The notes below the pieces were generated by a model. That model saw only the letters and a list, made by a program, of their open reading frames with translations, searched no databases and had not been told where the DNA came from. The translations under genes were made by a program, and so were the position numbers. A stretch of DNA of 64,000 bases. Source: Rhizobium album. Lineage in GTDB: Bacteria; Pseudomonadota; Alphaproteobacteria; Rhizobiales; Rhizobiaceae. Of this stretch, positions 1,133-64,000 are shown in pieces (the stretch's first letter is position 1; the number at the start of each line of letters is the position of its first letter). The DNA lies in assembly GCF_003122325.1 (NCBI RefSeq), contig NZ_QFBC01000001.1, positions 558,001 to 622,000 of the forward strand, read 5' to 3'.

Positions 1133-1187
1133 CACCAAGAGGATGGAGCAATCCTGTGAACCCGTGTTCACGGGAAATGCTGAGGGT

Positions 1188-2368: not shown

Positions 2369-2381
2369 GAACACGGATATT

Positions 2382-3806: not shown

Positions 3807-3851
3807 CGGGTGTTTCCATTCCGCCGGTTGAAATCCGGCAGCTTTCTGTTA

Positions 3852-3892: not shown

Positions 3893-3906
3893 AATCAAGG
3901 TGGAGC

Positions 3907-5274: not shown

Positions 5275-5420
5275 GAAAGTCCTTCGGCGGTAACGGCGGA
5301 AGTGCAATGGCGGGACATTGCGATGAACATCATGCGATTATGGCATTTGAAAGCCGTTGGCACGGGCGCGGCGGCACGATATTGCTGCGCCCAGCATCTG
5401 GCATCCGGGAGAAAACAGCC

Positions 5421-6428: not shown

Positions 6429-6544
6429 TCGTGTATTCCCTGAGCTCTGCGGCAAAAGCTTCATGCAAGCCGCGGCGGTTTATACAGGGCTTCAGATGCG
6501 ACAGGGTGCCCCCTTGCGCGCTGCACGGAAGCGAGATCCCCGAT

Positions 6545-8473: not shown

Positions 8474-8530
8474 ACCAAAGCCGCCAGCGCGGCGGTTGAA
8501 CCAAAGCCGCCAGCGCGGCGGTTGAACGAA
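8453..8530 (+). repeat. Three tandem 26-bp hairpin repeats spanning a stop codon
   Basis: Three head-to-tail units with a period of exactly 26 bp (8453, 8479, 8505). Each contains the hairpin core CCGCCAGCGCGGCGG followed by TTGAACCAAA; only one base differs (TTGAACGAAA in unit three). Unit one encodes the last residues and TGA of the glycosyltransferase. The array separates it from the convergent VOC gene and may work as a serial terminator. Confidence 0.9.
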
Positions 8531-8547
8531 AGGCGCGGGCGGGACGA

Positions 8548-9336: not shown

Positions 9337-9502
9337 AAAACTCTCCCTTTTTGACAAATGGTGGTCGTGAGACGGGCCGATCCGGGACGGCCCGACTGTC
9401 TTTCCGGTGGCATCCGCCGGACCGTGCGATGACGATCATCGCGCCGGCGGATGACGGCGTGATAAAGGCAAGTAGAGTCGGGGTCGTGCCCGGAAAAGCT
9501 CG

Positions 9503-32921: not shown

Positions 32922-35255
32922 ATGATTGCCGGTGCCGCCGACCTGACCTTCCTTGCCCTGTCGTTGCCTTTCGTCGCAGCCTGTCTTGCCCCGGTTCTCT
33001 TCCGGCTGTTCGGCCATCGCGCCGCCTGGCTGCTGGCATTGGCGCCGGCGGTTTCCTTCCTGCATCTCGCCGGTTTCATCGCCGAGGTCGCCCGCGGCGA
33101 GACGGTGACCGGCGGTTATGCCTGGGTGCCGAGCTACAATCTTTCCTTCTCCTGGTATATCGACGGCCTGGCGCTGGTCTTTGGCCTGCTGATCACCGGC
33201 ATCGGCGTCCTTGTCGTGCTTTACGCCGGCGGTTACCTGAAGGGCCATCCGCAGCAGGGGCGGTTCTTCTCCTTCCTCATGATGTTCATGGGCGCCATGC
33301 TCGGCCTCGTGGTGTCCGACAGCTTCCTGATGCTGTTCGTCTTCTGGGAACTGACCTCGATCACCTCGTTCCTGCTGATCGGCTTCGACCATGAAAGGCC
33401 GGCGGCGCGGCGGGCGGCGCTGCAGGCGCTGCTGGTGACCGGCGGCGGCGGGCTGTTCCTGCTCGCCGGCCTGCTGATGATCTGGAACATCGCCGACGTC
33501 ACCCAGATGTCGCTGCTCCTGTCCTACGGCGAGGTGGTGAAGGCGAGCCCCTATTACCTGGCGGCGCTGCTGCTCGTGCTGGTCGGCGCCTTCACCAAGT
33601 CGGCGCAGTTTCCCTTCCATGTCTGGCTGCCGAACGCCATGGAAGCACCGACGCCTGTTTCCGCCTACCTGCATTCGGCGACGATGGTCAAAGCCGGCGT
33701 CTATCTGCTGATGCGGCTTTATCCCGCCATGGGCGGCACACCGGTCTGGGAAATCCTGCTGCCCGTCTTCGGCGGCGGCACGCTGCTGACGGGGGCGCTG
33801 ATGGCGCTGCGCCAGACCGACCTGAAGCTGATGCTTGCCTATACCACCGTCGCCTCGCTCGGGCTGCTGGTGCTGCTGGTCGGCTTCGGGTCGCCTTATG
33901 CGATCGAGGCGGCGGTGCTTTATCTGGTCGGTCATTCCCTGTTCAAGGGTGCGCTGTTCATGGTCGCCGGCGCCATCGACCACGGGACGGGCACCCGCGA
34001 TCTCACCCGCCTCGGCGGCCTGCGGCGGGCCATGCCGGTCACCTTCGCCGCCGCCCTGCTGGCAGCCCTGTCTATGGCCGGCCTGCCGCCGTTTTTCGGT
34101 TTCCTCGCCAAGGAAGAAATCTACCTGGCGCTCGCTGCCGGCAATCTCCGGTCCATTCTTTTCACCATCGTAGCGGTCGCCGGCAATGCGCTGATGTTTG
34201 CCGCGGCCTTTGCCGTGGCGCTAAAACCTTTCCTCGGCGAAAGCCGGCAAACGCTCAAGCATCCGCATGAAGCGCCGGCCCTGATGTGGATCGGACCGCT
34301 GGTGCTGGCGCTCGCGGGACTGGCGGCGGCGCTGGTGTCGACGGCCTTCCATGCCGCGATCTCCTCGCCGATGGCGAGCGCGGTGAGGGGTGAGGCGACG
34401 GCGATCGCGGTCGGCCCGATGCCGCATGTCGGCCTGCCGCTTGCCCTGTCGGCGGCGACCATCCTGCTCGGGCTTGCCGCCTATCGGCTGCTCGACCGGC
34501 TGCGGGACGCGCTGGCGCGGTTTTTCCAGGCGCTCGGGCCGGGACCGGACCAGGGGTTCGACGAGGTGCTCGAGGCGCTGGTCGCATGTGCGGTGAAGGT
34601 GACGCGGTTCGTCCAGCCGGGCCGGCTGGATATCTACCTGTCCGTCACCTTCGCGGCGGTGGCGGCGGTGCTGCTGCTGCCGCTTTTCCTGTGGGGCGAG
34701 GCGCCGTCCGAGCCGGCATTCGCCTGGCCGTCGCTGTCCGAGCTCGCCATGCTGCTGATCGCGGTGATCGGGCTCGCCGCCGTGCTGGTGGCCGTCGACC
34801 GGCTGACGGCGATCGTGGCGCTCGGCATCCAGGGTTTTGCCGTCGCCGTGCTTTTCCTGCTGTTCGGCGCGCCGGATCTCGCCTTCACCCAGTTCATGAT
34901 CGAGACGCTGTCGGTGGTCATCCTGGCGCTGGTGATGACGCGGCTCAGGCTGCACGCCTCCGACCGCCGGCCGGCCGGACAGCGGCTGGCCGATGGCGCC
35001 GTCGCCCTCGGCTGCGGCCTCGGCCTCACCCTGCTGTTGCTGAAGGCGACCGAAGGGGTGTTCGACACGGCGCTCGGCGATTTCTTCGGCAGCTATTCCA
35101 AGGTGATCGCCCACGGCGCCAATGTCGTCAACGTCATCATTGTCGATTTCCGCGGCACCGACACGCTGGGCGAGATCGCCGTCGTGCTTGCCGCCGGCAT
35201 GGCGATCCTGGCGCTGATCCGCCTGGGTAAGACGCAAAAGCAAAGCGGCAAGTGA
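32922..35255 (+). CDS. mnhA: Na+/H+ antiporter subunit A (MnhA/MrpA)
   Basis: 777 aa, about 20 helices. The NuoL-like core includes [20 protein letters not shown], the proton-path block [20 protein letters not shown] and [13 protein letters not shown]. The C-terminal ~200 residues hold the DUF4040/MbhD segment ([40 protein letters not shown]). It is the first gene of a seven-gene unit. Together the subunits exchange Na+ or K+ for H+; rhizobial homologues are called pha. Confidence 0.95.
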
Positions 35256-35259
35256 CATC

Positions 35260-35679
35260 ATGAACAGTCCGATCTTCAGAACCGTCGCCCCCTTCCTCAC
35301 CAGCCTGATGCTGCTCTTTTCGCTGTTCGTGCTGCTGCGCGGGCACAATGCGCCGGGCGGCGGCTTCATCGGCGGCCTCGTCGCCGTCGCGGCGCTGGCG
35401 ATCCATGGCGCCGCCTGGGGTGTCGAGACGGTGCGGCGGGCGATTGTCTTTCATCCGCTGTCGATTGCCGCCTTCGGGCTGTTCCTGTCCTGCATCGCCG
35501 GTTTTGCCTCGGCTGCGGCCGGCGTGCCGTTCATGACCGGCCTGTGGGTGACCGTACATGTGCTCGGCAGCGCGGTGGCGCTTTCCAGCGTCATGCTGTT
35601 CGATCTCGGCGTCTATCTGGTGGTCGTCGGCGCGCTGCTTGCCATCGTCCTGGCGCTCGAGGAAGAGGAGGGCGTGTGA
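35260..35679 (+). CDS. mnhB: Na+/H+ antiporter subunit B (MnhB/MrpB)
   Basis: 139 aa with four helices. The MnhB signature [20 protein letters not shown] lies after helix 1. It begins 4 bp after mnhA. Its TGA overlaps the mnhC ATG. Confidence 0.95.
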
Positions 35680-36056
35680 TGGAGGCCTGGTTCAGCCTGC
35701 TGGCCGGGCTCTTCTTCGCCGCTGCGGTCTATCTCATCCTGTCGAAACATCTCATCCGGACGCTCATCGGCATCGTGTTGCTCGGCAACGCCGTCAACCT
35801 GACGCTGCTCGTGGCCGGGCGGCTGACGCGGGAAGTGCCGCCGATCATCGCCGACGGGCTCGATCGCCTGCCGGGCAATGCCGCCAATCCCCTGCCGCAG
35901 GCGCTGATCCTGACGGCGATCGTCATCTCGTTTTCGCTCTTCGCCTTCCTGCTGGTGCTGGCCTATCGCGCCTACCGGGTGCTCGGCACCGACGATACCG
36001 ACAGGATGCGGTTTGCCGAACCGGTCGATGAACCGGCGCCGCCGAAAGGGTATTGA
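35679..36056 (+). CDS. mnhC: Na+/H+ antiporter subunit C (MnhC/MrpC, NuoK-like)
   Basis: 125 aa from ATG 35679, whose A is shared with the mnhB stop. It has three helices; the block LIGIVLLGNAVNLTLLVAGR and the later NPLPQALILTAIVISFSLFA are the NuoK-type signatures. It forms part of the ion-translocating module with A and D. Confidence 0.93.
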   Translation: MEAWFSLLAGLFFAAAVYLILSKHLIRTLIGIVLLGNAVNLTLLVAGRLTREVPPIIADGLDRLPGNAANPLPQALILTAIVISFSLFAFLLVLAYRAYRVLGTDDTDRMRFAEPVDEPAPPKGY

Positions 36057-36059
36057 CGC

Positions 36060-37613
36060 ATGGCGGCATCTTCCGTGATCGATGTTTCTGCAGCCCTTGC
36101 GGCCGGCCCGGCGACGGCGGCGCAATGGCTCGTCGTGCTCCCCGCCGCCTCTTGCCTGCTGCTGTCGGCGGTGCTGGTCATGCTGTGGCGCCAGCCGCGG
36201 CTGCAACAGCTGCTTGCCGTTGCAGGCCTCGCCTTTCTCGTGCTGGTCGACCTCCTGCTGTTGCGGCAGGTGCTGGCGACGGGGCCGGTGACGATGGTGA
36301 TGGGCCGCTGGCTGCCGCCCTTCGGCATCGCCTTTACCGCCGATCTCACCGGCGTGCTGATGGCGCTTGCCGCCGCGCTCGTCGCCTTCGTTGTCTGCCT
36401 GTCCGCGGCGGGCGAGCGTGAAACCTCCGGCCGCGGCGACGGCTTCTACCCGATGCTGCTGATGCTGATGGCCGGCGTTTCCGGCGCCTTCCTCACCGGC
36501 GACATCTTCAATCTCTACGTCTGGTTCGAAGTGCTGCTGATCGCCTCCTTCGGGCTGATCGCGCTTGGACCGGAGCGGGCGCAGATCGACGGGGCGCTGA
36601 AATATGCGGTGCTGAACCTCGTCGCCACGACGCTTTTCCTCATCGCCGTCGGCATCCTCTATGCCGTCTTCGGCACGCTCAACATGGCCGATATCGTCAT
36701 GAAGGCGCCGGATCTGCGCGAGACGGCGCCGCTGGTGACGCTGACGGCGCTGTTCTTGCTTGCCTTCGGCATGAAGGCGGCGGCTTTCCCGGTGAATTTC
36801 TGGCTGCCGGCCGCCTATCATACGCCGCGCCCGGCGGTGGCGGCGCTGTTTGCCGGGCTTCTGACCAAGGTCGGCATCTACGCGCTGCTGCGTGTCACCG
36901 TCATGCTGTTTCCGCCGGAGCGCGAACAGCTGGAGCCGCTGATCGCCACCGTCGCCGTCGCCACCATGCTGACGGGCGGGCTCGGCGCGCTGGCGCAGAA
37001 CGACATCCGCCGCATGCTCGGTTTCGTGGTCATCGCCGGCATCGGCACCGTGCTGGCGGGCCTTTCGCTCGGCGGTCCCGGCGGCATCGGCGGCGCGCTG
37101 TTTTACGCGCTGCATTCCATGGTGCTGATGACGGCGCTGTACCTCGCCATCGGCGAAGCCGGGCGGATTGGCGGCAGTTTTTCGCTTGCGGCCCTCGGCG
37201 GGCTGTATGGGCGGCATGCCGGCTTTGCCGGACTTTGCCTGTGCCTGTTCTTCGCGGCATCCGGCCTGCCGCCGTTTTCCGGCTTCTGGCCGAAGGCGAT
37301 GCTGGTCAAGGCGGCGCTGGATGTCGGCGCCTGGTGGCTGGCGGGTGCCATGCTGCTGTCGGGTTTCCTGCTGACCATCGCTTTCGGCCGCGTCTTCCTC
37401 ATGGCTTTCTGGCGTCCGGCGAAGGAGACGGCACCGCCGGTGCTGGCACTGCGCTGGCAGGCAATAGGCCCGCTGCTGCTGCTGGCGGCGCTGGTCGTCG
37501 GTTTCGGCGCCTTTCCCGAACTATTGCTGCGCACCGTGCAGGATGCGGAGATTACGCTGGACAATCCGCAGGCCTATCTCGGCTCCGTCTTCCCGCAGGG
37601 GGCCGCGCCATGA
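36060..37613 (+). CDS. mnhD: Na+/H+ antiporter subunit D (MnhD/MrpD, NuoN/M-like)
   Basis: 517 aa, about 14 helices. It is homologous to complex I proton-pumping subunits: GDIFNLYVWFEVLLIASFGL, the Lys/Glu path around FGMKAAAFPVNFWLPAAYHT and TKVGIYALLRV. It lies 3 bp after mnhC, and its stop overlaps the mnhE start. Confidence 0.95.
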   Translation: MAASSVIDVSAALAAGPATAAQWLVVLPAASCLLLSAVLVMLWRQPRLQQLLAVAGLAFLVLVDLLLLRQVLATGPVTMVMGRWLPPFGIAFTADLTGVLMALAAALVAFVVCLSAAGERETSGRGDGFYPMLLMLMAGVSGAFLTGDIFNLYVWFEVLLIASFGLIALGPERAQIDGALKYAVLNLVATTLFLIAVGILYAVFGTLNMADIVMKAPDLRETAPLVTLTALFLLAFGMKAAAFPVNFWLPAAYHTPRPAVAALFAGLLTKVGIYALLRVTVMLFPPEREQLEPLIATVAVATMLTGGLGALAQNDIRRMLGFVVIAGIGTVLAGLSLGGPGGIGGALFYALHSMVLMTALYLAIGEAGRIGGSFSLAALGGLYGRHAGFAGLCLCLFFAASGLPPFSGFWPKAMLVKAALDVGAWWLAGAMLLSGFLLTIAFGRVFLMAFWRPAKETAPPVLALRWQAIGPLLLLAALVVGFGAFPELLLRTVQDAEITLDNPQAYLGSVFPQGAAP

Positions 37614-38083
37614 GACGCCTTGCGGCTTCGCTCATCCTTGCCGTCGTCTGGGCCGTGGTCACCGGCAGCGCCGCGCCGGCCAACCTGCTGCTCGGCCTCC
37701 TGCTGGCGATCCTCTGCCTCGGCGTCACCCGGCGGCATCGCGGCCGCGGCACGATCGCCGTCCGCCCGGTGGCGCTCCTGCTGCTCGGCCTGGTCTTCCT
37801 GCGCGAACTGGCGCTGTCGGCCTGGTCCGTCGCCATTGCCGTGCTGCGGCCGCGGCTCGACATCCGGCCCGCCATGGTCGCCTTTCCGCTGCGCCTCAAG
37901 CGCGACTTCGAGATCGCGCTCCTGGCCAACTGCATCACGCTGACGCCGGGGACGCTTTCGGTCGATGTCTCCGAGGATCGGCGGTTTCTCCACGTTCACG
38001 CGCTCGACTGCCGTGATCCGCAAGACCTTTGCCGCGGCATCGCCGAAACCTTTGAACGCCGGATCATGGAGGCCTTCCCCTGA
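37610..38083 (+). CDS. mnhE: Na+/H+ antiporter subunit E (MnhE/MrpE)
   Basis: 157 aa. Two to three N-terminal helices precede a soluble C-terminal ferredoxin-like part with the MnhE signature [24 protein letters not shown] overlap with mnhD; its TGA overlaps the mnhF ATG. Confidence 0.93.
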
Positions 38084-38451
38084 TGGCGCAGAACATCCTT
38101 TCCGCCGCGATCATTCTCTCGCTCGGCCTCCTGACGCTGGCACTGCTGCTGACGGTGCTAAGGGTGGTGCGCGGCCCGACGCTTCCCGACCGCGTCGTGG
38201 CGCTCGACATGCTGGTTGCCGTGGCGATCGGCCTGATCGCCGTCATCGCCGTGAAGACGGGGTTCTTCCTCTATATCGACATCGCCATCGCTCTGGGCCT
38301 CGTCGGCTTCCTGGCGACGGTGGCCTTTGCGCGCTTCATTATGTCGCATCGGTATCGGGCCGCCACGGAGACCGCCGCGAAACCGCCGCCGGAAGCCGTG
38401 CACCGGGGAAACGCGCGACGAAACCGCCGGCCGCGGAGGCCACGGCGATGA
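38083..38451 (+). CDS. mnhF: Na+/H+ antiporter subunit F (MnhF/MrpF)
   Basis: 122 aa with three helices and the MnhF block [20 protein letters not shown]. It is longer than the usual ~90 aa because of a C-terminal Pro/Arg-rich tail ([12 protein letters not shown]). The tail is encoded where the message also contains the mnhG ribosome binding site, so it may be a by-product of that overlap. Confidence 0.92.
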
Positions 38452-38786
38452 TGGCCGATGCGCTCGCGCTGCTGTGCGCTTTCCTGCTGGTCGCCGGGTC
38501 CGCCTTCGCGCTGACGGCGGCGATCGGCATCAACCGCTTTCCGGATCTTTTCACGCGCATGCATGCGGCCTCGAAAGCCGGCACGGTCGGTTCGAGCCTG
38601 CTGCTTCTCGCGGCCGGCCTTTATTCGTGGGACTTCGCGGTGTTCCTGAGGGCGCTCGCCGGCATCGCCTTCCTGATCCTGACGGCGCCGGTCGCCGCCC
38701 ATCTCCTGGCGCGCGCAGCAAAAGGATCCGGATATCGAATCAGCACGTTATCGGTGCGCGCCACTCACCGGGACAACAAGAAATAA
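38448..38786 (+). CDS. mnhG: Na+/H+ antiporter subunit G (MnhG/MrpG)
   Basis: 112 aa from ATG 38448, with GGAGG 8 nt upstream; a second ATG follows at 38451. It has three helices and the signature [20 protein letters not shown]. It is the last gene of mnhABCDEFG, overlapping mnhF by 4 bp. Confidence 0.93.
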
Positions 38787-39254
38787 GTATAATTCCGGCT
38801 TTTTCGGCCTTGCCGATTTGCAAGAATTGTTCTGTTTAGCTATTGCGCCAAGTTTGTGTTTTAAAACTTGATGCTTGCAACAATCGAGCAATGCTTAAAA
38901 CTGGGATGGTAGATTTTGCAATTGGACTTTTCTGCAAATGATGATAATTCAAAAAAAATCGGAGTTCCGGTATTGATTTAGTTTTGTCCGCTTTCACCGA
39001 TGGCCTTATCCGAGGGAAAGTCATGGATATGCAGGAGTTGGCGATGCCCAATCGTGGTGCATATTGTGGGGACAGCTTTAAAACAGTGCCGGGCGGCGAG
39101 ACAGCCGGCTGTCGTTGAAGCCTAGGGGTGGGTTTCGGTGCAACATCTTGGTGTGTGCACCTGGCAGGCGGCTTTTTGTTGCGTATCCGAACTGATGGCG
39201 CTGCGTTTTGTGAAGAAGCGGGTGCTGGGCAAGGTTTTGAACAGGAGAATGAAA
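38787..39254 (+). promoter_or_regulatory. 468-bp AT-rich leader upstream of mucR
   Basis: No gene is visible. The stretch 38820-39000 is far more AT-rich than its surroundings, with A/T runs. MucR/Ros proteins bind AT-rich DNA and repress their own genes, so this is the likely autoregulatory region. Two short hairpins (AGCCGGCT near 39107 and GGTG-x-CACC near 39155) lie in the transcribed leader. Confidence 0.5.
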
Positions 39255-52842: not shown

Positions 52843-53626
52843 GCGCCGGGCCGGCGAGGTTTTGCAACGGCATGCGGGCGAGATGGCGGTGATCGGCGAC
52901 GGACGCAAGGTTTTGACGCCGCTGGCCATGGCGGCCGCGGCGGCGGTTTGGGCTGGACGGCGGGTGGCGGCGGAGACCCAAGGCGTCGGTGTCACGGCGT
53001 ATGCCGGAGATGGTGGCGAAGCGAATGGGGCGCCCGGTGAAGGCAAGGCGGTTATCGTGACGTCGAAAGCGGCGACGACGTGTCGGGAAGATGCGAAAGT
53101 CTCTACGCAACGGCCCGGCGGTGACGATTTTGCGGGGCGCGGGGATGGTTTGCGGGGCGCAGCGGCGGTGATGTCGCCTTCGGAGAGGCGGGGATCGGAC
53201 ATCCGGCAGGATCTGGCCGCGCATCTGCTGCACGAATGGTGTTTTCAGGGACGCCGCGAACAGCAGGCGCCCGAAGGTGACTGGCGCAATTGGCTGATCT
53301 TGGGCGGGCGCGGTTCGGGCAAGACGCGGGCCGGCGCCGAATGGGTGCATGGGCTGGCGACGGGACATCCCCTGGCGGGCGAGTTGCGGATCGCACTGGT
53401 GGCGGAGACGCTGGGCGATGCCCGCGAGGTGATGATCGACGGGGTATCCGGCATCTGCCGGATCGCCCGGCGGATGCGGCCATCCTTCGAGGCGTCGCGG
53501 CGGCGGCTCGTCTGGCCGAACGGGGCGATGGCGCAGATCTTTTCCTCCGAGGACCCGGAGAGTTTGCGCGGGCCGCAATTCCACTTTGCCTGGTGCGACG
53601 AGCTGGACTTTATGAAAAGCGGATAA
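52793..53626 (+). pseudogene. Large terminase (GTA/prophage DNA packaging), truncated by an island
   Basis: 277 codons from ATG 52793 (GGAG upstream), overlapping the previous gene by 50 bp. The ATPase start is clear: WLILGGRGSGKTRAGAEWV (Walker A), IALVAETLGDAREVMIDG, RRRLVWPNGAMAQIFSSEDP and FHFAWCDEL (Walker B). After DEL (53605) the protein ends in six unrelated residues and TAA. The rest of the ATPase and the whole nuclease domain are missing. The first ~125 residues are an unusual extension. The break coincides with a sharp fall in GC. Confidence 0.85.
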
Positions 53627-54230
53627 GCCAGCGATACTCCTTCCGTTGCATTTATTGAAAAATGACGTGGCCGCTTCTAGGTGCAAAGGTGCGCACGACC
53701 GCTTTCATTCGAACCTCCACGTCTAAAAGCTCCATCGAAAAGGCGTGTGTTAAATGTCGACTCACCGCGTTAGGTTCGGATCTAATTGTTTTTGGGAAGC
53801 GAACGAAGTGCGCTTTCTAAGCTTGCTCCAACACAACAAGCCAGAAATATTGTTTGTCTCAGAAGCCTGTTGATATTTCATCTGTTTCTAATTTTTAATT
53901 TAAAAACCCATGGTGCCAAATCTCTGTTGGGCGCAACTTTATCGTGACAACCAGTCTTGGCTGAAACAGCGTAGGCAGGTTGCGATAGGTTAATTTAACG
54001 TTAACAAACGTTGAAAAATATCAACTAATTTCAGCCAGTTACAAAGTTTTTTCGCGTTAAAATGCGTTAATGTCGATTGACATCATATTAACCTTCTCGC
54101 TAAGAATTAATCATTCAAGACGAATCGACTTCAGGTTGATTTCTTCTTTTCGCGTAACCGAAGACATAAAGACTTCGTCGTCTCGCCAAACGGGCATTTT
54201 CGTTAAAAATCAATTCTATAGGTGGCCTCG
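53627..54230 (+). promoter_or_regulatory. 600-bp AT-rich region upstream of the flagellin gene
   Basis: No gene is visible. It contains a consensus CtrA box (53990-54005) and several further TTAA-rich stretches between 54055 and 54115. A strong ribosome binding site (AGGTGG) precedes the flagellin ATG. Confidence 0.5.
53990..54005 (+). promoter_or_regulatory. CtrA-type box upstream of the island flagellin
   Basis: TTAATTTAACGTTAAC equals TTAA-N7-TTAAC. In this AT-rich DNA a chance match is more likely than in the backbone, so the call is cautious; flagellar genes are frequent CtrA targets. Confidence 0.45.
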
Positions 54231-56255
54231 ATGACAAGCATCCTGACCAACGGCGCAGCTATATCCGCGCTTGATACACTCCGTTCAATCAACAATCACT
54301 TGGAGGCGACCCAGCAGCGGATCAGTTCGGGTCTGCGAGTCAGAACGGCTTCGGATAATGCTGCTTACTGGTCGATTTCGACGACCATGCGATCCGACAA
54401 CATGGCACTTTCAACAGTTGCAGACGCATTAGGTTTAGGTGCTGCAAAAATTGACACCACCTATACAGGGCTTGAATCCACGGTCGATATTTTGAGTGAA
54501 TTTCGCGCCAAATTGGTTGCCGCTAAAGAGCCTGGAATTGACAAAAGCAAAATTCAGAAAGAATTGAATCAATTCAAGGAGCAACTAAAATCGATTGCAG
54601 CTTCATCCAGCTTTAGCGGTGTCAATTGGCTTGAGACTAATGTACCACAAAATCTGCGGCATTTGCCGAGTTTACCCACTGATATTGTTTCCTCATTTAT
54701 TCGTTCGTCTGATGGCTCCGTTAGGGTTGGCACTACAACAATTGACGTCGCTGAGATTAGTCTTTTCAATTTAGGTGGAGGCGGGTCTCTGCAAAAATCT
54801 CCAGGCTCCCTGGGTACCATAGGAGGCTTTCGAACTGCTTCTCTTAATGCAGTCGGAGTTGGCGGAACTGACATACGAGCTACAACCGGTTTTCCATTTG
54901 CTCTTACGAGTTCCGATGTCATCAGCTTTGATGTTGCTGTGGACGGGTTGATCTCACAAACAGTTACGATAGACAAAACCCTAGTGGATGCAACTCTCGG
55001 CATTGCAAATGGCAATATCGCAACGCATGCTGCATTCGCAACTGTACTAAATCAAGCACTGGTTGCGGCTGGCGTTGATTCCTATGTTTATGCCGATCTC
55101 ACGGGTTCTCAACTGACGTTTATCAGCAAGGGTAATACTGGAGCGCCAACATCGAGTGTTGTCGTCGATAACATTACTCGCAACCCACCTGGTCCTACCG
55201 GTTTCTCTTCGGGGTATGAACAACGTGCAACAACTGGACTGCCGCTGGTTCTCTCTGTTGGTGAACAGATAAACCTAGATATCAGCGTCGATGGTCTAGC
55301 TTCACAAACGCTCACAATTGATGATTCTCTTATCAACTCCTCGCTTGGCGTAGTTAATGGAACCATCAATGACGCAGATGACTACGTTGCAGTGTTAACG
55401 CAGGCATTGATCAATGCAGGAGCCGGTAGCAATATTCAGGTCATGAAGGTATTTGGCTCATCAATACGTTTCACAAGCACTGAATCATCCGGCGGTTCTT
55501 TTAGTGGCGTAACGCTAAGCAATATTGTCAGGACGCCATCAGGAGCAAGTGGTTTAGCAGGTGGTGGTTCAATTGGAAGTGCGGCTTATGTAAGGGCAAA
55601 TGGATATTACGCGCAGGCACAATACACTTTTACAACGCCGTTTACTGTTACGTCTGGTTCTCTCATTAGCTTCGATGTTAAAGTGGGGACGGGGACTCAG
55701 ACAACAATAAACATCGACCGTAACCTTGTAGATGCCGCCCTTGGTACATCGGATGGCCTTGTGAACTCCGCAGCAGCCATGGCGACCGTTCTAAGCCAAG
55801 CTCTAACGGGACAGGATGTAACTGTGACTTCCAGCGGTTCGCAGGTTATTTTTGATATCGATCCAGCACAAGGATTTAGCGCTAATTTCCTCATCAGTGA
55901 TGTAAGTGACAACGTCAAGTATCGTGGTGCGGATTTTGACATTGTGGATGTCGATATTACTGATCCTGTGAATGATCTCGACAACTACATTGACGGGGTT
56001 GATGCCATGCTTGAGCGGGTGGTGAATTCGGCTGCAGCGTTGGGTGCAATCAAAACCCGCGTTGATATCCAAACGGATTTTGCACATACCCTCATGGACA
56101 CATTGGATAAGGGAATTGGTCGATTAGTCGATGCTGAAATGGGTGAGGCTTCAACCCGTTTGAAAGCTTTGCAAACTCAGCAACAATTGGGGATTCAAGC
56201 ATTGCAGATTGCAAACAGCAACGCCGAAAACATTCTGCAGCTGTTTAACCAATAA
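54231..56255 (+). CDS. Oversized flagellin with three homologous central inserts
   Basis: 674 aa from ATG 54231, which gives the rhizobial N-terminus MTSILTNGAAISALDTLRSI. N-terminal D0/D1 (about residues 1-145; RISSGLRVRTASDNAAYWSI) and C-terminal D1/D0 (about 570-674; GEASTRLKALQTQQQLGIQA, LQIANSNAENILQLF) are intact. Between them three related ~115-residue modules begin near nt 54870, 55216 and 55576, each with xxVxIDxxLVDxxLG and a xxVLxQAL helix. Rhizobial flagellins are usually 300-430 aa. Codon use is AT-rich. No other flagellar genes are nearby. Confidence 0.92.
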   Translation: MTSILTNGAAISALDTLRSINNHLEATQQRISSGLRVRTASDNAAYWSISTTMRSDNMALSTVADALGLGAAKIDTTYTGLESTVDILSEFRAKLVAAKEPGIDKSKIQKELNQFKEQLKSIAASSSFSGVNWLETNVPQNLRHLPSLPTDIVSSFIRSSDGSVRVGTTTIDVAEISLFNLGGGGSLQKSPGSLGTIGGFRTASLNAVGVGGTDIRATTGFPFALTSSDVISFDVAVDGLISQTVTIDKTLVDATLGIANGNIATHAAFATVLNQALVAAGVDSYVYADLTGSQLTFISKGNTGAPTSSVVVDNITRNPPGPTGFSSGYEQRATTGLPLVLSVGEQINLDISVDGLASQTLTIDDSLINSSLGVVNGTINDADDYVAVLTQALINAGAGSNIQVMKVFGSSIRFTSTESSGGSFSGVTLSNIVRTPSGASGLAGGGSIGSAAYVRANGYYAQAQYTFTTPFTVTSGSLISFDVKVGTGTQTTINIDRNLVDAALGTSDGLVNSAAAMATVLSQALTGQDVTVTSSGSQVIFDIDPAQGFSANFLISDVSDNVKYRGADFDIVDVDITDPVNDLDNYIDGVDAMLERVVNSAAALGAIKTRVDIQTDFAHTLMDTLDKGIGRLVDAEMGEASTRLKALQTQQQLGIQALQIANSNAENILQLFNQ

Positions 56256-56337: not shown

Positions 56338-56820
56338 ATGGATATCAAAGAATATTCAGGAAAGGATTTTCGCATTTCACACCTAAAATCTCTAAAATTC
56401 GCTTCTGTTGCTTCGATTAATACGAATATCGATCCGATTCAAAAGGATCGAGAAAAAATGATCTCTGCTTTGACTGAACAGAAACGGATGGTGGAAGCAA
56501 AAATCACCGGTCAGACTTTCGCTCCAACTCATATCATTCGTCGTAAAAATGACGAAGGAAAGCTCGTCAAGGTCGAAGTTCCGAAACGATTGCGTCAAGG
56601 TTGGTTCAATGATGCAAGTGGCAAGCTATTCTTCTCTGTGCGTTATGCTGGTAAGATTATCGAGTTTGCGAAGGACAAGAACGCCATCGAGGTCGGTGAG
56701 TTTTCCAATCTTCCGGGTGTCCTAGACACACTGATGGAAGCTGTTCGTGCCGGTGAACTCGATACGCATCTCACAACTGCAACTGCTGAACGTCGCAAGC
56801 TTTTGCGCAAAGCCGGATAA
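56338..56820 (+). CDS. DUF6641 family protein
   Basis: 160 codons from ATG 56338, which lacks a ribosome binding site. Homologues, as I recall them, start at a point equivalent to ISHLKSLKF, where AAGGA stands 7 nt before an ATT codon at 56374, so ATT may be the true start. FAPTHIIRRKNDEGKLVKVE, RLRQGWFNDASGKLFFSVRY and AVRAGELDTHL are the family blocks. DUF6641 genes occur on plasmids and phages; the function is unknown. Confidence 0.65.
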   Translation: MDIKEYSGKDFRISHLKSLKFASVASINTNIDPIQKDREKMISALTEQKRMVEAKITGQTFAPTHIIRRKNDEGKLVKVEVPKRLRQGWFNDASGKLFFSVRYAGKIIEFAKDKNAIEVGEFSNLPGVLDTLMEAVRAGELDTHLTTATAERRKLLRKAG

Positions 56821-57480: not shown

Positions 57481-57505
57481 CGGAATTATGTAGCAACTGC
57501 CACCA
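57481..57505 (+). repeat. IS left terminal inverted repeat
   Basis: Reads CGGAATTA, T, then GTAGCAACTGCCACCA. The right end differs only at the ninth base (T versus G). Confidence 0.95.
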
Positions 57506-57521
57506 AGTCCGTTGATGACGT

Positions 57522-58517
57522 TTAGAAGACGACCTGGCGAAGCATCGGCCACTCTTCACCACTCTTACGAATGAAGGCTCGCAGCTCAGGCTGATCCTCC
57601 TCGTAATCGGGTTTCCTGGAAAACGTAGTGATCAAGTGAACAGACGACAGTCCTGCGCGGTCTGAGCACAGATCCACGTCGGTATCACTTGTGTCGATGT
57701 CGCAGATCAAAAAGTCGAGTTTTGCGTTGTTGATCTTGTCAACGAGACCTTTCGAGGGGAAGGTACTGTCGCTTACATGGTTTTTGTTAAGGGGCGGTTT
57801 GAAATAATTAATCAAGCTGGCTTCAAACAGTTCAGTGTACCAGTCGGTGTCATTAACAAGCTCATTCGGCGCTTCCACATTCAAATTCCTGTATAGAATG
57901 TTTGGGTCAATTCTCATCAACACCAGACATACCTCGTGGCCGTGCCGCACCATGTTCATAGCTCTCGGCAACTGCTTGTGCCCGCCGAGTGACCTATCAA
58001 GGGAGCCATCGGAATAGGTGGATCCATTCCCCTTCCCGATGTAAAGAACTTTCATCGACCGAGCTTCTCTCACGCCATGTCGAGAACATAGGGTTCGAAC
58101 ATGCACCCGGATCTGGTGCGTTGGACTGAAGACGCTAAGAAATTCTCTTCGATCCTCGATGACGACACTATGGCTCCGGCTCTTGATGGTTCCGTCGCTC
58201 AGGTCGCTGATTTTCCGTCGCGCACGAAATAGGGAGCCATCGACCAGTGATCTTACTGTCGCAATCAACAGCCTTCCACCTTGTGACACGCGAGCTCTGA
58301 CATACTCGAAGCGGGCTGCTTCGCACATCGCGTAGATCGTTGTGTCTTCTACTCGGGTGCCGTCGTGAAAGTCCGCGAAAGCATCGCGTGGATTGTCGTG
58401 ATCGAAAAGCTTGCTGATCGGGGAGGCATAGACCTTATCGGAGTAGAGGATGCACGTTTTCGCGACAAGATCGGCGTCTAACTCACCGTCAGACTTATAC
58501 ATTTTCTGATAAAGCAT
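57522..58517 (-). CDS. IS passenger protein with a GIY-YIG-like region
   Basis: 331 aa from ATG 58517 (GGAG 6 nt upstream). The middle (MKVLYIGKGNGSTYSDGS, LGGHKQLPRAMNMVRHGHEV, then FEASLINYFKPPLNKN) follows the GIY-YIG nuclease pattern: YIGKG, a downstream His, and E-x-x-LI-x-x-x-x-P-x-x-N. The first ~150 residues are not recognised. It ends 41 bp from the IS left end. It may be a nuclease that aids or guards the element; this is inference. Confidence 0.6.
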   Translation of the reverse strand: MLYQKMYKSDGELDADLVAKTCILYSDKVYASPISKLFDHDNPRDAFADFHDGTRVEDTTIYAMCEAARFEYVRARVSQGGRLLIATVRSLVDGSLFRARRKISDLSDGTIKSRSHSVVIEDRREFLSVFSPTHQIRVHVRTLCSRHGVREARSMKVLYIGKGNGSTYSDGSLDRSLGGHKQLPRAMNMVRHGHEVCLVLMRIDPNILYRNLNVEAPNELVNDTDWYTELFEASLINYFKPPLNKNHVSDSTFPSKGLVDKINNAKLDFLICDIDTSDTDVDLCSDRAGLSSVHLITTFSRKPDYEEDQPELRAFIRKSGEEWPMLRQVVF

Positions 58518-58719
58518 CATAAACTCCACGCAACATCTAAGCGTGGAAGGACCGCTCAGCCGGCGCAACGTGGGCGTTCAAGATTCCGATCGACTCTTCG
58601 TCGGGACGTTGGTAAGGTCCGCGGTATGTTCAGGCCCATAGACATACGACAACGCTGATTTTCTGCCCGCCGACCCCGGCGGCGCCCTGTCGTATCGCGT
58701 AGTCATCAAGGGACCGAAC

Positions 58720-59830
58720 ATGCCGATCAACCTTCCCGCCACCAGTCCGTCGCAGCCCTCCATCTCCTCTGAACTGGAGGCACTTCGGAGGGTAGAAATA
58801 TTGGGGCAACCAGCACTTCCTGCTGTCGCCCTACTGCCGCACCTTCACGATTAAGAACCTCAGGACGTTCGACGAGGACAAGGCCTACAAGGTCTTTTGC
58901 TTCCTTCGGTGGCCGGACAGCCACGGGAAGCCGGAGTGCGTGCGCTGCGGCCACAGGAGCTGCTGGGAGATCCGTCGCAAGCGCTTCAAGTGCCAGGCAT
59001 GCCGCCGGGAATTCTCGGTCACCACCGGGACGGTCTTCGCCTTCCGGAAGATGCCTTTTCTCGACATCCTGACAGCGCTGTGGTTCTCGGTGAACTCGGT
59101 CAAGGGCAAGAGCGCCCTGCAGCTCTCTCGCGAACTGGGCGTCCAGTACAAGACGGCCTGGGTCATTCTCATGAAAATGCGCGAGGCGATCTCGTCTAGG
59201 CGCTTGGACATGATGCTCGAGGGCGAGATTCATATCGACGGCAAATACGCGGGCGGCCACATCAAGCCGGAGAACCGAAAGGAAGATCGCGTCGATCGAC
59301 GACGAGCCGAGAACCAGAACAACAAGCGCCTGACAATCCTGACGATGCGCGAGAAGTCGCCGTTCGGCCGCGGCAGAGAGCGGACGCTGACGCGCGTCAT
59401 CCGGAGCGAGGATTCCAACGAGGCATGGGAGATGGTCAGGAAGCACGTCCGCAAGGGGTCTCGCCTGCACGCGGACGAGCACTTCAGTTACGACGATCTC
59501 GAAGGTCTTCAGGAACTCCACCGCGTCAACCACAGCGAGGAATATCAGGCGAAGGGCGGGGTCAACACGAACCACGTCGAGAGCTTCTTCAGCCGCATCC
59601 AGCGCGCCTACGTGGGCATCCACCATCGCTTTTCGGTCAGATACTTCGACTGGTACGCGGCTGAGATGGCCTGGCGCGAGGACAATCGCCGCGTCGACAA
59701 CGGCATGCTGCTCTGGGGCATGATCTACAAGGGGCTGTCGAGGCCGACGTCGAGAAACCTATGCGGATACTGGCAGGGGAACCATCCGCCGGATCTGGTT
59801 TGGAAAGGCGGCGAAAGCCCTGACGCATAG
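58720..59830 (+). pseudogene. IS1595-family (ISXO2-like) transposase, +1 frame break near the 5' end
   Basis: The ATG at 58720 (AGGGA upstream) opens MPINLPATSPSQPS... and runs to RRVE at 58797. One extra A at 58798 shifts the frame. The rest (YWGNQHFLLSPYCRTFTI, CVRCG...CQAC zinc ribbon, transposase domain with DGKYAGGH, LHADEHFSYD, TNHVESFFSRIQRA) reads in the next frame to 59830. Joined, it is 369 aa. Internal starts give a 296-aa protein that loses one zinc Cys. Either a mutation or recoding. Confidence 0.8.
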
Positions 59831-59835
59831 CAGGG

Positions 59836-60291
59836 CTAGGCCGCGACCTCCCACTGGTAGCGGCGGCCGTCGATCATTCCGGCCCGCCTGATGCGGTTGG
59901 CCTTCGCGAGCTGATCAAGAACCTGGGAGAAGCGGCTACCGATCTGACCCAGTCTGGCGTCGTCTTCTGGAAGGCCCGTTTCGGTCGCGAAGACGCGAGC
60001 GAAGTCTGCTGTAGACATCGGGCTTTCAGCCTTGCGGAGAGTTCTGAGGACAAAGCTTCGGCGGTCAAAGCCCTTGAAAAGCTGGGTAATGCTGTTGGGA
60101 CTGGGAGCCGCCCGCTTCGAGCGGCGAACTGTGCCTGATGCATCTGGCATGTAGTCGGGTTCGTAGGTTCGAATGACGAGATCGAAAGCGATCTGCTGCT
60201 GCTCCAGCGCGGCAATCTGGATTCGCAGCCCTTCAATCTGCTCGCCGAGCTTCGCCCGCTTTCTCTTCAATTCATCCGCGACAAGAACCAT
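59836..60291 (-). CDS. IS passenger: coiled-coil plus winged-helix protein
   Basis: 151 aa from ATG 60291 (AGGAG 9 nt upstream; TTG 60297 alternative). A coiled coil (ADELKRKRAKLGEQIEGLRI-QIAALEQQQ) precedes a basic linker and a winged-helix-like half (FVLRTLRKAESPMSTADFAR, FSQVLDQLAKANRIRRAGMI). It is probably DNA-binding. A perfect palindrome abuts its ribosome binding site, suggesting self-control. Its stop is 5 bp from the transposase stop. Confidence 0.65.
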   Translation of the reverse strand: MVLVADELKRKRAKLGEQIEGLRIQIAALEQQQIAFDLVIRTYEPDYMPDASGTVRRSKRAAPSPNSITQLFKGFDRRSFVLRTLRKAESPMSTADFARVFATETGLPEDDARLGQIGSRFSQVLDQLAKANRIRRAGMIDGRRYQWEVAA

Positions 60292-60305
60292 ACGCAACCA
60301 CTCCT

Positions 60306-60326
60306 TTAGGATCGCGTCGATCCTAA
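60306..60326 (-). promoter_or_regulatory. Perfect palindrome abutting a ribosome binding site inside the IS
   Basis: TTAGGATCG-3 nt-CGATCCTAA; on the minus strand AGGAG of the passenger gene follows directly. It could be an operator for the wHTH protein or an RNA hairpin limiting its translation. Confidence 0.65.
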
Positions 60327-60346
60327 GAGTTCAGTGGCAGAGAGTC

Positions 60347-60371
60347 TGGTGGCAGTTGCTACCTAATTCCG
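60347..60371 (-). repeat. IS right terminal inverted repeat
   Basis: Inverted copy of 57481-57505 with a single mismatch. Confidence 0.95.
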
Positions 60372-60379
60372 CGCTTTTG
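60372..60379 (+). repeat. Target site duplication, right copy
   Basis: CGCTTTTG, identical to 57473-57480. Confidence 0.95.
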
Positions 60380-60980
60380 TCGTTCAATGCGTAAAAAACA
60401 TCATGACCTCTTTCAGGGTTCTTTCGACATAAAAGCACCGAAAACCCTTCGTCATCAAGGGGGATTTCGAAGTTCATTTCGGCAGATATGGTGTATTTTA
60501 CAGCCGTCTCTGATCTTGCAATGGATCGTCCATTTTGGGCCTTTGAGATGTTCTTTGCCCTCTGCTTATTGAGACGAATGCGTTCAATTCCGCCGTTCTT
60601 TTTGATCCAATCAGGCACCTCTTCGGCTGTTAGCTTTTGAGCCTTGGCTGCTTTCAACACCTTGGAGATAGCGCTGTTGCGTTTGGTGTCTTCATTGCCA
60701 AAAACAAGTTTGGCCGCAAGAAGCGCACCTGTGGTGGCTTTCGTGACTTTGATCTTCCCTTTTGCAGCAACGGCCTTAATATCTGCAAGCGTTGCACCGT
60801 CATACAGCTTATAGGTTCTGGCGATGATTTGGTATAGTCGTTCATGAGCGGCTTTTTGCTCGTTAGATTCCCATTCAATTCGCTCCTTTTCTAGTTCCGC
60901 AAATTTATTAATCATGGAGGTTCTAGAAGTATTTCTTACGATAGCATTCATTTCAATATCACCTTTCATTTTTGGATAAG

Positions 60981-61454: not shown

Positions 61455-62036
61455 ATGTCACGCATCTTTGCATATGTCCGCGTTTCAACGTTCGTTCAAA
61501 CAACTGAAAACCAGTTGCTCGAGATTGCAGCAGCAGGCTTTCAAATCGAACCGCATCGGATTGTAACCGAAACTGTTTCCGGTAGCACGCCCACTTCGCA
61601 ACGAAAGGGATTCTCACGCCTGCTCGATAAGCTTGAGCGGAATGATGTTTTGATCGTCACGAAACTCGACCGTTTGGGGCGAGACGCAATCGACGTAACG
61701 ACAACGGTTGGCCGACTCGAAAAGCTTGGCGTCCGAGTCCATTGCTTAGCTTTGGGAGGAGTCGATTTGGCGAGTCCAGCAGGTCGAATGACAATGCAAT
61801 TGCTGAATGCTGTTGCGCAGTTTGAACGCGACCTTCTGATCGAACGAACGCAATCGGGACTTCGACGTGCACGTGCCGAAGGACAAATTCTTGGAAGACC
61901 ACCAAGGCTTACTGAAGATCAAAAGCAGCAGGTTCGATCCCGACTTACTGGTGGAGCAAGCATATCGCTTTTGGCGAAAACCTTTCGCGTGAGCAGGCAA
62001 ACGATCATGCGAACAAGAGAAGTGCATCAAGCATGA
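61455..62036 (+). CDS. Serine recombinase, resolvase/DNA-invertase family
   Basis: 193 aa (AAGGA 6 nt upstream). The catalytic Ser is in IFAYVRVSTFVQTTENQL; the active-site Arg block is VTKLDRLGRDAIDVTTTVGR and the later VAQFERDLLIERTQSGLRRA. The C-terminal HTH is GASISLLAKTFRVSRQTIMR. The size is that of Tn3 resolvases and Hin/Gin invertases, so it could resolve or invert island DNA. No res or hix site pair was confirmed. Confidence 0.92.
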   Translation: MSRIFAYVRVSTFVQTTENQLLEIAAAGFQIEPHRIVTETVSGSTPTSQRKGFSRLLDKLERNDVLIVTKLDRLGRDAIDVTTTVGRLEKLGVRVHCLALGGVDLASPAGRMTMQLLNAVAQFERDLLIERTQSGLRRARAEGQILGRPPRLTEDQKQQVRSRLTGGASISLLAKTFRVSRQTIMRTREVHQA

Positions 62037-62425: not shown

Positions 62426-63124
62426 ATGATTAAACCAACAGACATTACCCATGCATACATTGAAATGACGACTGATCGAATCGAGAAAGGATTCAAACCA
62501 TTCATTCTCACCTTCATGTTCAACCAATTATCTGGTGGAGATGAAGGTGTTCGAAAGCAAATGATCGACTCTATGCATGGCATATACGGTCATCTTCTTT
62601 CCCGCATCACAAGGCGTCCATCCAAGGATCTTGCTGATTTACCGCTGTGGGTCTTTTGCCAAGATTGGCCGGTTCCAAAAGACTCGAAAACGACCCTTTC
62701 TCAGGCATCAATCAATGATGGTTGTCACGTGCACGCGTTTGTTCTTTTGCCACCGAAAACACGCGGAGACTTTGACCTCGTTCGATATGTCGAGGAGGAG
62801 CAGCAGAAACTTATTGCCTTGGATGCCGGCAAACCAATCGAAAGAATCCATGCTGTTGAGGTAACGGAAACACCAGAACGAGCAGCCGAATACGTCATCA
62901 AATCAGTTGATCGCAAACGGATCGGCATTGACGGTATTGAATGCTTCCCATTGGCGAGAAGCGAAATGACGACGCTTTCGAATGCTGAAAGACGTGACCG
63001 TGCTGCAAAATTCAACGCGGACAAAATCGTGTCTGCAGCAGAAAACGACAATGCCCCATCCGTTCTACTGCGCGAGTCCCAGATCAAGCTTCATGCACTC
63101 CAACGGCGCCTCCGGAGGGGATAG
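62426..63124 (+). CDS. HUH-type Rep/relaxase-like protein
   Basis: 232 aa from ATG 62426 (weak TAAAGA upstream). The three HUH motifs appear in order: KPFILTFMFNQLSG (motif 1-like), DGCHVHAFVLLPP (His-x-His metal site) and ERAAEYVIKSVDR (Tyr-x-x-Lys catalytic). This suits a rolling-circle replication initiator or a related nicking protein such as inoviral Gp2-like Reps. The residual ~60 C-terminal residues are basic. It may replicate or nick the excised island. Confidence 0.6.
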   Translation: MIKPTDITHAYIEMTTDRIEKGFKPFILTFMFNQLSGGDEGVRKQMIDSMHGIYGHLLSRITRRPSKDLADLPLWVFCQDWPVPKDSKTTLSQASINDGCHVHAFVLLPPKTRGDFDLVRYVEEEQQKLIALDAGKPIERIHAVEVTETPERAAEYVIKSVDRKRIGIDGIECFPLARSEMTTLSNAERRDRAAKFNADKIVSAAENDNAPSVLLRESQIKLHALQRRLRRG

Positions 63125-63137: not shown

Positions 63138-64000
63138 TCAGCGCGAACGTACAGGCTGAAGGCGTCTTGCTGTGAACGACGTATAGAAGCGATGATCTTG
63201 CCGCTCAGCAGCTTCAACGAGTTTCTTGTTGGCTTCAATTGCCAGATCAATTTTTTGAGCCGACAGTCCCATTTCACGAAGGATGGAAACAAACCTCTCT
63301 CGATTGAAAGTCGGCGTGATGTCGCGATTGGGCTTCACCATTTTCACTGTTCCATCAGAGTTTTTGATAGCGAATGGTCTGCGACCAAGATTTCGGAATG
63401 CGTCCACTAGATTGACGCTACCTATTAATTTTCCTTTTCGGTCAAATCTATAAGCTTTTGTGAAGCCCGCGATCCAAACCGTTGCTTCAAGTTCAGAAAA
63501 GTCTATCTGAACGAGTGAAATGTATTGAGAGAGCATTTCAGAAACGCGAGCACGGGATTGAAAAACTTTGTTATCGTCAGAGCAGGTTTCCCAATTTTTT
63601 CGTTCTATAAAGATATTTTCGATAAGATCGGAGAAGTGCTTTCCATCGCTAGATAGCTCTCGACTTTCGTTCTCGAGGCGAGATATTATAGATCTGTTCT
63701 CTTCAATTTTTCCTCTTAACTGATTGGCTTGATCAGCTATAGCTTGTCGATCTTCGATGCTTTCGAGCATGGGGGCCATAGAAAGTGTGTTTTTGCGCTC
63801 TGTCTCGTGCTTCTCAATCGCTGCTTTACGGGAGTCTATTTCGCGTTCGATTGAAGTCTTGGAAAGTCGGTTTGCTGAGTGCAAATCCAGTGCTGCATGG
63901 TGGAAATCAGGTAGGCAGGCTAGAACGGCGGATTCTAAAACTTCGTACCGATAAAACTGACGCGGACAGGTGCTTTTTGAATTTGTGATCTTGTCGGAGC
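63138..64000 (-). CDS. Large serine recombinase, C-terminal part (5' end beyond the window)
   Basis: The frame is open to the window edge. The first readable residues contain a likely half zinc-ribbon with STCPRQFYRYEVLESAVLAC (the C-x(n)-RY-x-x-LE-x-x-L pattern that ends the recombinase zinc domain). A long coiled coil follows (about 63600-63850; IEREIDSRKAAIEKHETERK, NQLRGKIEENRSIISRLENE), then a C-terminal domain. Large serine integrases have this layout. It converges on the HUH gene and is the best candidate for the island integrase. Confidence 0.65.
   Translation of the reverse strand, partial: SDKITNSKSTCPRQFYRYEVLESAVLACLPDFHHAALDLHSANRLSKTSIEREIDSRKAAIEKHETERKNTLSMAPMLESIEDRQAIADQANQLRGKIEENRSIISRLENESRELSSDGKHFSDLIENIFIERKNWETCSDDNKVFQSRARVSEMLSQYISLVQIDFSELEATVWIAGFTKAYRFDRKGKLIGSVNLVDAFRNLGRRPFAIKNSDGTVKMVKPNRDITPTFNRERFVSILREMGLSAQKIDLAIEANKKLVEAAERQDHRFYTSFTARRLQPVRSR

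Follow-up and report, generated by a model that had tools for sequence, protein, structure and literature searches.

Why does a gene for an unusually large flagellin stand alone in AT-rich DNA of Rhizobium album, far from the flagellar genes of its host? The gene lies at positions 54231..56255 (plus strand) of a stretch of 64,000 nucleotides (assembly GCF_003122325.1, contig NZ_QFBC01000001.1, positions 558,001 to 622,000), hereafter the window. A sequence-only reading of the window had proposed that this flagellin is carried by mobile DNA. Here, we describe the element around it, an island of ~11.5 kb that splits the terminase gene of a gene transfer agent (GTA) cluster, a feature that the earlier reading overlooked. 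We regard it as probable that this is an integrative 'flagellar conversion' island with the flagellin as a conserved passenger, which would coat the filament while the GTA stays off until the island excises. Mobility of the island is strongly supported by comparison with related genomes; assembly of the flagellin and a benefit to the host are inferred. The 394 genomes of the family set used for comparison carry G-numbers (G000 is the host), and individual loci that were read carry L-numbers.

The island interrupts a GTA terminase gene

The island extends from position 53602 to the window end at 64000 and on to 65105 (G000:C1:623105), as delimited by base composition, attachment (att) junctions and an empty site in the congener G106. 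GC content drops from ~0.64 to mostly 0.45-0.49 over ~53.6-65.1 kb, except for a GC-richer transposon at 58-60 kb, which agrees with the proposed acquisition of AT-rich DNA. Left of the island, the 5' part of a gene for a GTA terminase large subunit (53183..53601, plus strand; true start not fixed) matches Terminase_6N (9.6e-19) as well as the intact terminase of G106, and its frame ends with ...FAWCDE, a motif that we take to be Walker-B. Right of the island, the frame resumes with LAKWKYG..., the C-terminal half of the terminase, followed by the portal gene and other members of an RcGTA-like cluster, all of them outside the att sites. The order of open reading frames (ORFs) and the terminase profile identify the cluster as RcGTA-type, and G106 has matches to the terminase, the portal and two ORFs downstream of them; most names in the terminase-portal-protease-capsid-tail order are presumed ones.

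The 9 nt of attL, ACGAGCTGG (53598..53606), are the same in attR, whose core lies past the window end at 65104-65105 (window numbering), just beyond the integrase start. In G106, the sequence is uninterrupted (...GCCTGGTGCGACGAACTGGCGAAGTGG...). By eye, GA within the glutamate codon is the sole dinucleotide common to all three junction pairs (window, G178 and G307); it is the probable crossover dinucleotide (53600-53601) and gives an insert of ~11.5 kb. The large serine integrase of 628 amino acids (aa) is encoded on the minus strand (C-terminal part 63138..64000; start at 65024, beyond the window), begins 80 bp from the right junction and belongs to a PHROG integrase family (phrog_95, 1.1e-61). 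Its homologue in G178, which is 48% identical, has Resolvase, Recombinase and zinc-ribbon domains. The island encodes an integrase of known type and has defined junctions as well as an empty site in a relative, and recombination by the integrase apparently took place in the glutamate codon of Walker-B. Judged by these comparisons, the island is an acquired insertion. The recombinase genes that had been noticed around the flagellin are located on its right side, namely a resolvase/invertase gene (61455-62036) and the integrase gene, plus an IS1595-type transposon. Among distant serine integrase loci (12 plus the island's own; 7 including its own), a GTA terminase was found in the fetched flank of the window island alone.

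Divergence of the terminase and portal genes was low at nonsynonymous relative to synonymous sites. Between host and G106, dN/dS is 0.16-0.17 for the terminase halves and 0.21 for the portal, and over the three hosts compared it is 0.08-0.17 and 0.10-0.21, respectively; all are NG86 values, a second method giving no value for several pairs. These ratios make the interruption look recent or reversible.

The C-terminal terminase half is matched at E <= 1e-50 in 285/394 genomes. Among the matches listed, at least three islands with related integrases interrupt the same codon: those of the window, G178 and G307. The G178 island (also read as L015; an uncultured Rhizobium metagenome-assembled genome, MAG) spans ~7 kb and has a resolvase, an HUH-like protein, a 672-aa flagellin and an integrase as recognisable genes. 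Compared with the window island, identities are 57% for the flagellin, 55% for the resolvase, 48% for the integrase and 33% for the HUH-like protein, as against 84% for the flanking terminase half; synonymous sites are saturated in the flagellin, whereas dS is 0.78 in the terminase half. The two islands were therefore most likely acquired separately. Two further short terminase frames were not counted as islands: that of G328 reflects a contig end, and that of G153 consists of two frames with no insert. The latter locus (L122, 3618-5345) thus has a GTA terminase broken near the same place without an insertion.

A flagellin enlarged by repeated outer domains

The flagellin frame starts with ATG at 54231, has a ribosome-binding site (AGGTGG) 5 nt upstream and ends with its stop codon at 56255. 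The 674-aa product matches Flagellin_N (3.3e-31, 1-136 of 139) and Flagellin_C (1.2e-13, 1-86 of 86), so that the N- and C-terminal D0/D1 helical regions are nearly full length, in accord with the claim that these ends are intact. An AlphaFold model (mean predicted local distance difference test, 79.5; predicted template modelling (TM) score, 0.52; both termini weak) has the flagellin fold with long D0/D1 helices and three alike beta-alpha-beta outer units. The latter comprise ~115 aa each and share 31-39% mutual identity over 110-115 aa; the size of the protein is thus due to repeated outer domains. The closest structure in the PDB is the filament of S. meliloti (7sn9; E 2.6e-16), with a low TM-score of 0.30 (query) and a high root-mean-square deviation, as expected because domains have been added and their arrangement is uncertain. 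By profile and fold the protein is a bacterial flagellin, and its assembly into filaments would be expected. It had been called giant: it is indeed oversized relative to ordinary flagellins, but published use reserves that term for flagellins of >1,000 aa (PMC6248924).

The D0/D1 ends are 54-63% identical to those of the four cluster flagellins of the host. Relative to the flagellin of the G178 island, the ends are 77-80% and the outer part is 45% identical. In the host genome (6.86 Mb), the flagellar cluster occupies C1 ~170-215 kb, where ORFs inspected by eye presumably encode MotA/MotB, FlhB, FlgE, FlgL and others, and the island lies at C1:612 kb, ~400 kb apart. Four flagellin genes stand in tandem within the cluster (C1:194.8-199.5 kb), as anticipated for the flagellins of the host; others are found at C1:111 kb, in C4 and in C12. 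None of the ORFs beside the island looks flagellar by eye, so that the solitary position of the large flagellin gene was described correctly. A Hin-like phase switch of the gene was rejected, as there are no long inverted repeats on either side of it; the strongest pair (26 nt, 96%) corresponds to the ends of the IS1595-type transposon.

Large flagellins on islands elsewhere

Large flagellins (E <= 1e-120) occur in 47/394 family genomes (12%) and in 26 of 109 genera, and 15 plasmid records have a match across at least 80% of the flagellin query. Within the host's genus, the protein is found in G000 and G178 and, at this threshold, not in G106. In a tree of D0/D1 regions, one branch (100/98, present in all 200 bootstrap trees) divides 31 large from 43 ordinary flagellins; this tree includes the four host cluster flagellins and omits two long-branched rows, the Aureimonas plasmid flagellin L111 and the host C1:111-kb flagellin. 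An earlier tree with both of these rows set the ordinary flagellins together with L111 apart at 86/95, with the host C1:111-kb flagellin outside, and did not prove the large flagellins to be one clade. L111 itself (plasmid pAU20e, 57 kb, mobilizable) has a TraA relaxase gene close to the one for its 600-aa flagellin.

In other genera, flagellin islands were also recognised beside tRNA-Arg genes (L017, an Agrobacterium MAG; G157; G219; G349) and tRNA-Phe genes (G215 and G268, the latter with the same genes as L034); the G215 and G268 islands are near-identical and represent a single case. The large flagellin gene of G211 is 474 bp away from that of a related tyrosine integrase. The family formed by L017, G157, G219 and G215/G268 has a backbone of tyrosine integrase, HUH Rep, AAA, DUF6626 and DUF6641 proteins. 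The window island does not possess this backbone, having in common only a large serine integrase, the flagellin, DUF6641, one gene of unknown function and perhaps the HUH-like protein; the tyrosine integrase and HUH protein of the tRNA type were not found in G000 at the thresholds used. In a flagellin tree with island rows labelled, six of the seven labelled rows fall into one clade of eight rows (100/99), and the flagellin of the tRNA-Phe type is a separate capture; the near-identical G268 row carries no label in this tree.

The sequence-only reading had also raised the question whether flagellin, DUF6641 and HUH protein travel as a unit. They do not form a fixed set: DUF6641 was not found in the G178 island and is present in flagellin-less elements of G294 and G181, and is thus not a flagellin-specific partner.

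Some neighbours of large flagellin genes deserve mention. A protein of ~220 aa and unknown function is encoded just upstream of the flagellin in L016, L019, L045, L108 and L176, including the G349 island, and may mark the region of flagellin capture. Eight large-flagellin loci (L020, L023, L036, L038, L043, L049, L110, L133) have a regulator-like gene family in common; in L110, a gene annotated as LuxR family adjoins the flagellin. In the G219 island (L185, 11663-13448 and 17316-19355), genes for a helix-turn-helix (HTH)-M78 peptidase and of RmrT type adjoin the flagellin, and a GmrSD restriction gene lies between serine and tyrosine integrase genes.

No match to the 674-aa flagellin was obtained by tblastn against 50,697 phage records, and a flagellin profile detected five relatives in viral contigs. 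One of these is L199 (IMGVR_UViG_2896540771_000002, 725-9607), a prophage fragment in which the gene for a large flagellin of 42% identity stands beside a transposase-like gene, with genes for terminase, head decoration, capsid/protease and portal around it; this is possibly a rhizobial prophage-borne flagellin.

Selection and a CtrA-type box

Comparison of the G157 and G219 flagellins yielded a dN/dS of 0.068 over 559 aa, similar in core and outer parts; as far as this one pair indicates, large flagellins are under purifying selection. Upstream of the window gene, a box of the type TTAA-N7-TTAAC (TTAATTTAACGTTAAC; 53990..54005, plus strand) lies 241 nt from the flagellin start, and has the form given for CtrA sites (PMC3692519). 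An exact TTAA-N7-TTAA precedes 12 of 38 large flagellin genes at a distance of up to 350 nt; 200 shuffles gave 0.23 on average and never more than 2, and among other genes of the same loci the figure is 5/475. Since this test arose from inspecting the leader alignment, a later set of 29 flagellin genes served as a check: the box occurs in 13 of these (a 30th gene had no identifiable start), and in 11 of the 22 among them that were newly examined. It also precedes three of six host flagellin genes examined. Positions are mostly near -88 or near -225 to -244, and alignment of the whole upstream regions of the flagellin genes revealed no alignable promoter. From the box, we infer that the island flagellin may be controlled by CtrA.

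A TldR-type RNA-guided repressor of host flagellins was considered as well and not adopted. At gathering score there was no Rfam match, the longest match to host flagellin loci was 14 nt, and no TnpB-like family was among the profile matches of the island; a guide of a type invisible to these searches may exist.

Other genes of the island

Downstream of the flagellin gene, the island encodes a DUF6641 protein (phrog_31551; 56338..56820, plus strand), which is also present in related elements with and without flagellin. The IS1595-type transposon (57481..60371) has inverted repeats of 25-26 bp and a target duplication, CGCTTTTG, which is a perfect 8 bp as read by eye. It spans 2.9 kb, and the island would hence have measured ~8.6 kb before its insertion. 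Besides an IS1595/ISXO2-type transposase (58940..59830, plus strand; profile 4.5e-43), it carries two passenger ORFs, one GIY-YIG-like by eye only, with no convincing profile match (57525..58568, minus strand), and one to which neither the ORF list nor the profile scan assigns a function (59836..60297, minus strand). These are followed by a gene for a protein of unknown function (60331..60969, minus strand) with kin in the L017, L034 and G219 islands and the G181 element, by that for the small serine recombinase (resolvase/invertase by profile; 61455..62036, plus strand) and by that for an HUH-endonuclease-like protein (62426..63124, plus strand), recognised by eye from its HxH and Y..K motifs and having no profile match.

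A PHROG scan of eight island proteins gave recombinase/DNA-binding and unknown-function families only, and no phage structural or packaging genes were found; by gene content, the island is not a prophage or a phage satellite. Relatives of DUF6641 and of the large serine integrase were not found in viral contigs. Elsewhere in the window (33000-39000), ~6 kb at 65-68% GC show a strong AT skew (-0.27 to -0.35).

Weighing the explanations

In the explanation that we favour, the element would enter a cell and integrate, by means of its own large serine integrase, into a codon conserved by GTA terminases, and excision would rejoin the two in-frame terminase halves. The flagellin would be transcribed together with host motility genes through the CtrA-type box, exported by the flagellar machine of the host and built into the filament via its D0/D1 ends, the three stacked outer domains forming a thicker and different coat. 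The flagellar surface of each new host would be converted in this way, the likely gain being escape from phages, motility or adhesion, and GTA production would be kept off for as long as the island is integrated. We hold surface conversion more firmly than any single benefit, because the five window-island proteins scanned had no defence-type match and because in the precedent of the Enterobacter prophage FR-phi (see below) effects on motility and immune recognition, and no flagellotropic phage, were found.

Several observations weigh against this explanation. Only part of the large flagellins can be assigned to islands: at least 8 of the 47 genomes have a recognisable one (G000, G178, G157, G219, G349, G215, G268, G211), a minimum, since contexts were read for some of the genomes only, and among the 36 best loci (L015-L050) integrase or DUF6641 probes hit L015, L017 and L034 only, which indicates that many large flagellins are not on such islands. 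In rhizobia, large flagellin genes often stand alone, with no island genes close by. In G307, whose island is interrupted by contig ends and lacks its middle in the assembly, a large flagellin was not found. Two probes other than the flagellin speak partly for the explanation and partly against it. The HUH protein of tRNA-type islands matched 7/394 genomes; the four best (G219, G268, G215, G157) have the flagellin, and no flagellin was seen in the stretches read around the matches in G294, G115 and G181. Likewise, the tyrosine integrase probe hit seven places in 6/257 genomes, four with a large flagellin within 4.5 kb (G219, G157, G215, G211) and three without (two in G084 and one in G255). 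Both probes were taken from flagellin islands and are hence not bias-free, and numbers are small; within these limits, the flagellin is a frequent, not an obligatory cargo, four of seven being well above its 12% frequency among genomes. Moreover, CtrA-type sites need not be functional (PMC3692519), and the island flagellin may contribute only a minor subunit, since searches of the island revealed no repressor of the flagellins of the host.

A narrower proposal is that the flagellin was selected for escape from flagellum-binding phages, its bulky outer domains hiding or replacing a receptor on the filament. Defence-type genes are indeed found on sibling islands (in G219, GmrSD type IV restriction and RmrT; in G157, a PDC-S02 relative), the outer part diverges more than the ends between the window and G178 flagellins (45% versus 77-80% identity), and a flagellotropic phage, 7-7-1, infects Agrobacterium sp. 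H13-3 of the same bacterial group (PMC3517404). However, five window-island proteins scanned with PADLOC had no defence match, and for the Enterobacter prophage flagellin 1,144 phages were screened, none of which was flagellotropic, and resistance was judged unlikely to be the main driver (PMC13418256). We consider this function possible, yet doubtful as the principal one.

Alternatively, an ordinary supernumerary flagellin may have ridden onto an island that spreads for other reasons. Rhizobia often have such additional genes away from the main cluster. Examples are known from R. leguminosarum, where FlaE is plasmid-borne and FlaG and FlaH are chromosomal outside the cluster; single mutants of VF39SM showed no significant motility change, and in 3841 mutation of flaE or flaH shortened the filaments and reduced swimming (PMC2936354). 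The spread of large flagellins over 47/394 genomes, most of L015-L050 having no island probe nearby, and the position of four annotated plasmid copies (L108-L111) and of L134 amid unrelated genes fit this account. Against it, the 7-kb G178 island, recombinases and the HUH-like protein aside, has the flagellin as its sole recognisable cargo, the flagellin recurs on islands of differing integrase types and target sites, and a well-supported branch separates large from ordinary flagellins. On balance, we think it rather unlikely.

A third possibility is that the island acts mainly as a GTA silencer, insertion into the terminase halting GTA production and the accompanying lysis, with the flagellin being incidental. 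The use of the same catalytic codon by at least three islands with related integrases would be in line with this, as would the dN/dS of terminase (0.16-0.17) and portal (0.21) versus G106, which are expected for a recent or reversible interruption. On the other hand, a conserved codon is a good broad-host attachment site in any case, and other flagellin islands target tRNA genes rather than the GTA; we regard silencing as an unlikely main role. RcGTA packages ~4.5 kb. A range of 5-15 kb is given for GTAs (PMC9632790), which bears on whether the 11.5-kb island could itself ride in a GTA.

That the flagellin is a silent or decaying passenger, not expressed or not assembled, might be suspected from its AT-rich acquired DNA. 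Full-length open frames in the window, G178, L017, L034/G268, G215, G157, G219 and G349, the dN/dS of 0.068 (G157 versus G219) and the presence of a CtrA-type box and a ribosome-binding site make this very improbable. Finally, relocation of a host cluster flagellin by recombination found no support and is hardly credible, as the host retains its four tandem cluster flagellins, these fall on the opposite side of the 100/98 branch, and G106 combines an empty site with the lack of a large flagellin at threshold.

The conversion island thus remains our preferred explanation. It is favoured also by the third island at this codon (G307), the purifying selection, the enrichment of the CtrA-type box, the similarity of the D0/D1 ends to those of the host cluster flagellins and the modelled repetition of outer domains. 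The att junctions, the empty site in G106, the G178 island, the tRNA-associated relatives and the 100/98 split bear out the proposal that the lone flagellin is mobile cargo and not a rearranged host gene, and an identical flagellin in the flagellar cluster of a relative was not seen. Beyond this locus, we put forward only tentatively, and would not be surprised to see it fail, that the rhizobial islands are a recurrent class spreading a dedicated clade of bulky flagellins wired to the CtrA programme, with one lineage switching the GTA off and on by entering and leaving the catalytic codon of its terminase while the flagellar coat of the host is altered.

Relation to known systems

Few known proteins vary as much as the outer domains of flagellins, and at issue is the route by which whole flagellins pass between lineages. 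Small islands bearing a complete flagellin gene along with its upstream region would let it pass directly, outside phages. Insertion into the GTA terminase moreover would link two mobile systems in one cell, and predicts that island-positive strains produce no GTA until the island excises. In the open-access literature searched, with subscription papers outside the scope, we found neither a mobile island described in a GTA terminase nor a flagellin described as island or plasmid cargo of the present kind.

The comK prophage and the skin element are serine-recombinase elements that split a conserved host gene. As with these, the host gene could be restored on excision of the window island; here, however, the target is a GTA terminase and excision is a prediction. 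The cluster hit resembles RcGTA-type GTAs in that the split gene, the large terminase, is followed by portal and structural genes (PMC6854486), and differs in being interrupted. Cross-phylum transfer of flagellins has been inferred in a study which also states that replacement of a resident flagellin by a new one from a distance is not feasible (PMC7018530).

Enlarged flagellins are known from marine gamma-proteobacteria, in which they form thick filaments; these exceed 1,000 aa, and carriage by mobile elements is not mentioned in the excerpt at hand (PMC6248924). FlaE, FlaG and FlaH of R. leguminosarum likewise are encoded outside the flagellar cluster, one on a plasmid, and FlaE and FlaG were detected in filaments of VF39SM. 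They differ, however, in their length of 302-337 aa, and island cargo is not described in the parts of that study drawn on (PMC2936354), whereas the window protein has 674 aa and falls on the opposite side of the tree from the cluster flagellins.

The closest precedent is the flagellin of the Enterobacter prophage FR-phi (FliCP/TldR), for which effects on motility and immune recognition are described. In both cases, the flagellin of a mobile element is divergent and has enlarged outer domains; that of FR-phi remodels the filament of the host (PMC13418256), and that of the window island would do likewise. Whereas FR-phi, a siphovirus prophage, encodes the RNA-guided repressor TldR, the window element is a small island in which no phage structural genes were found. 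Related mobile elements with similar flagellins in other bacteria suggest that mobile DNA can give flagella a new coat.

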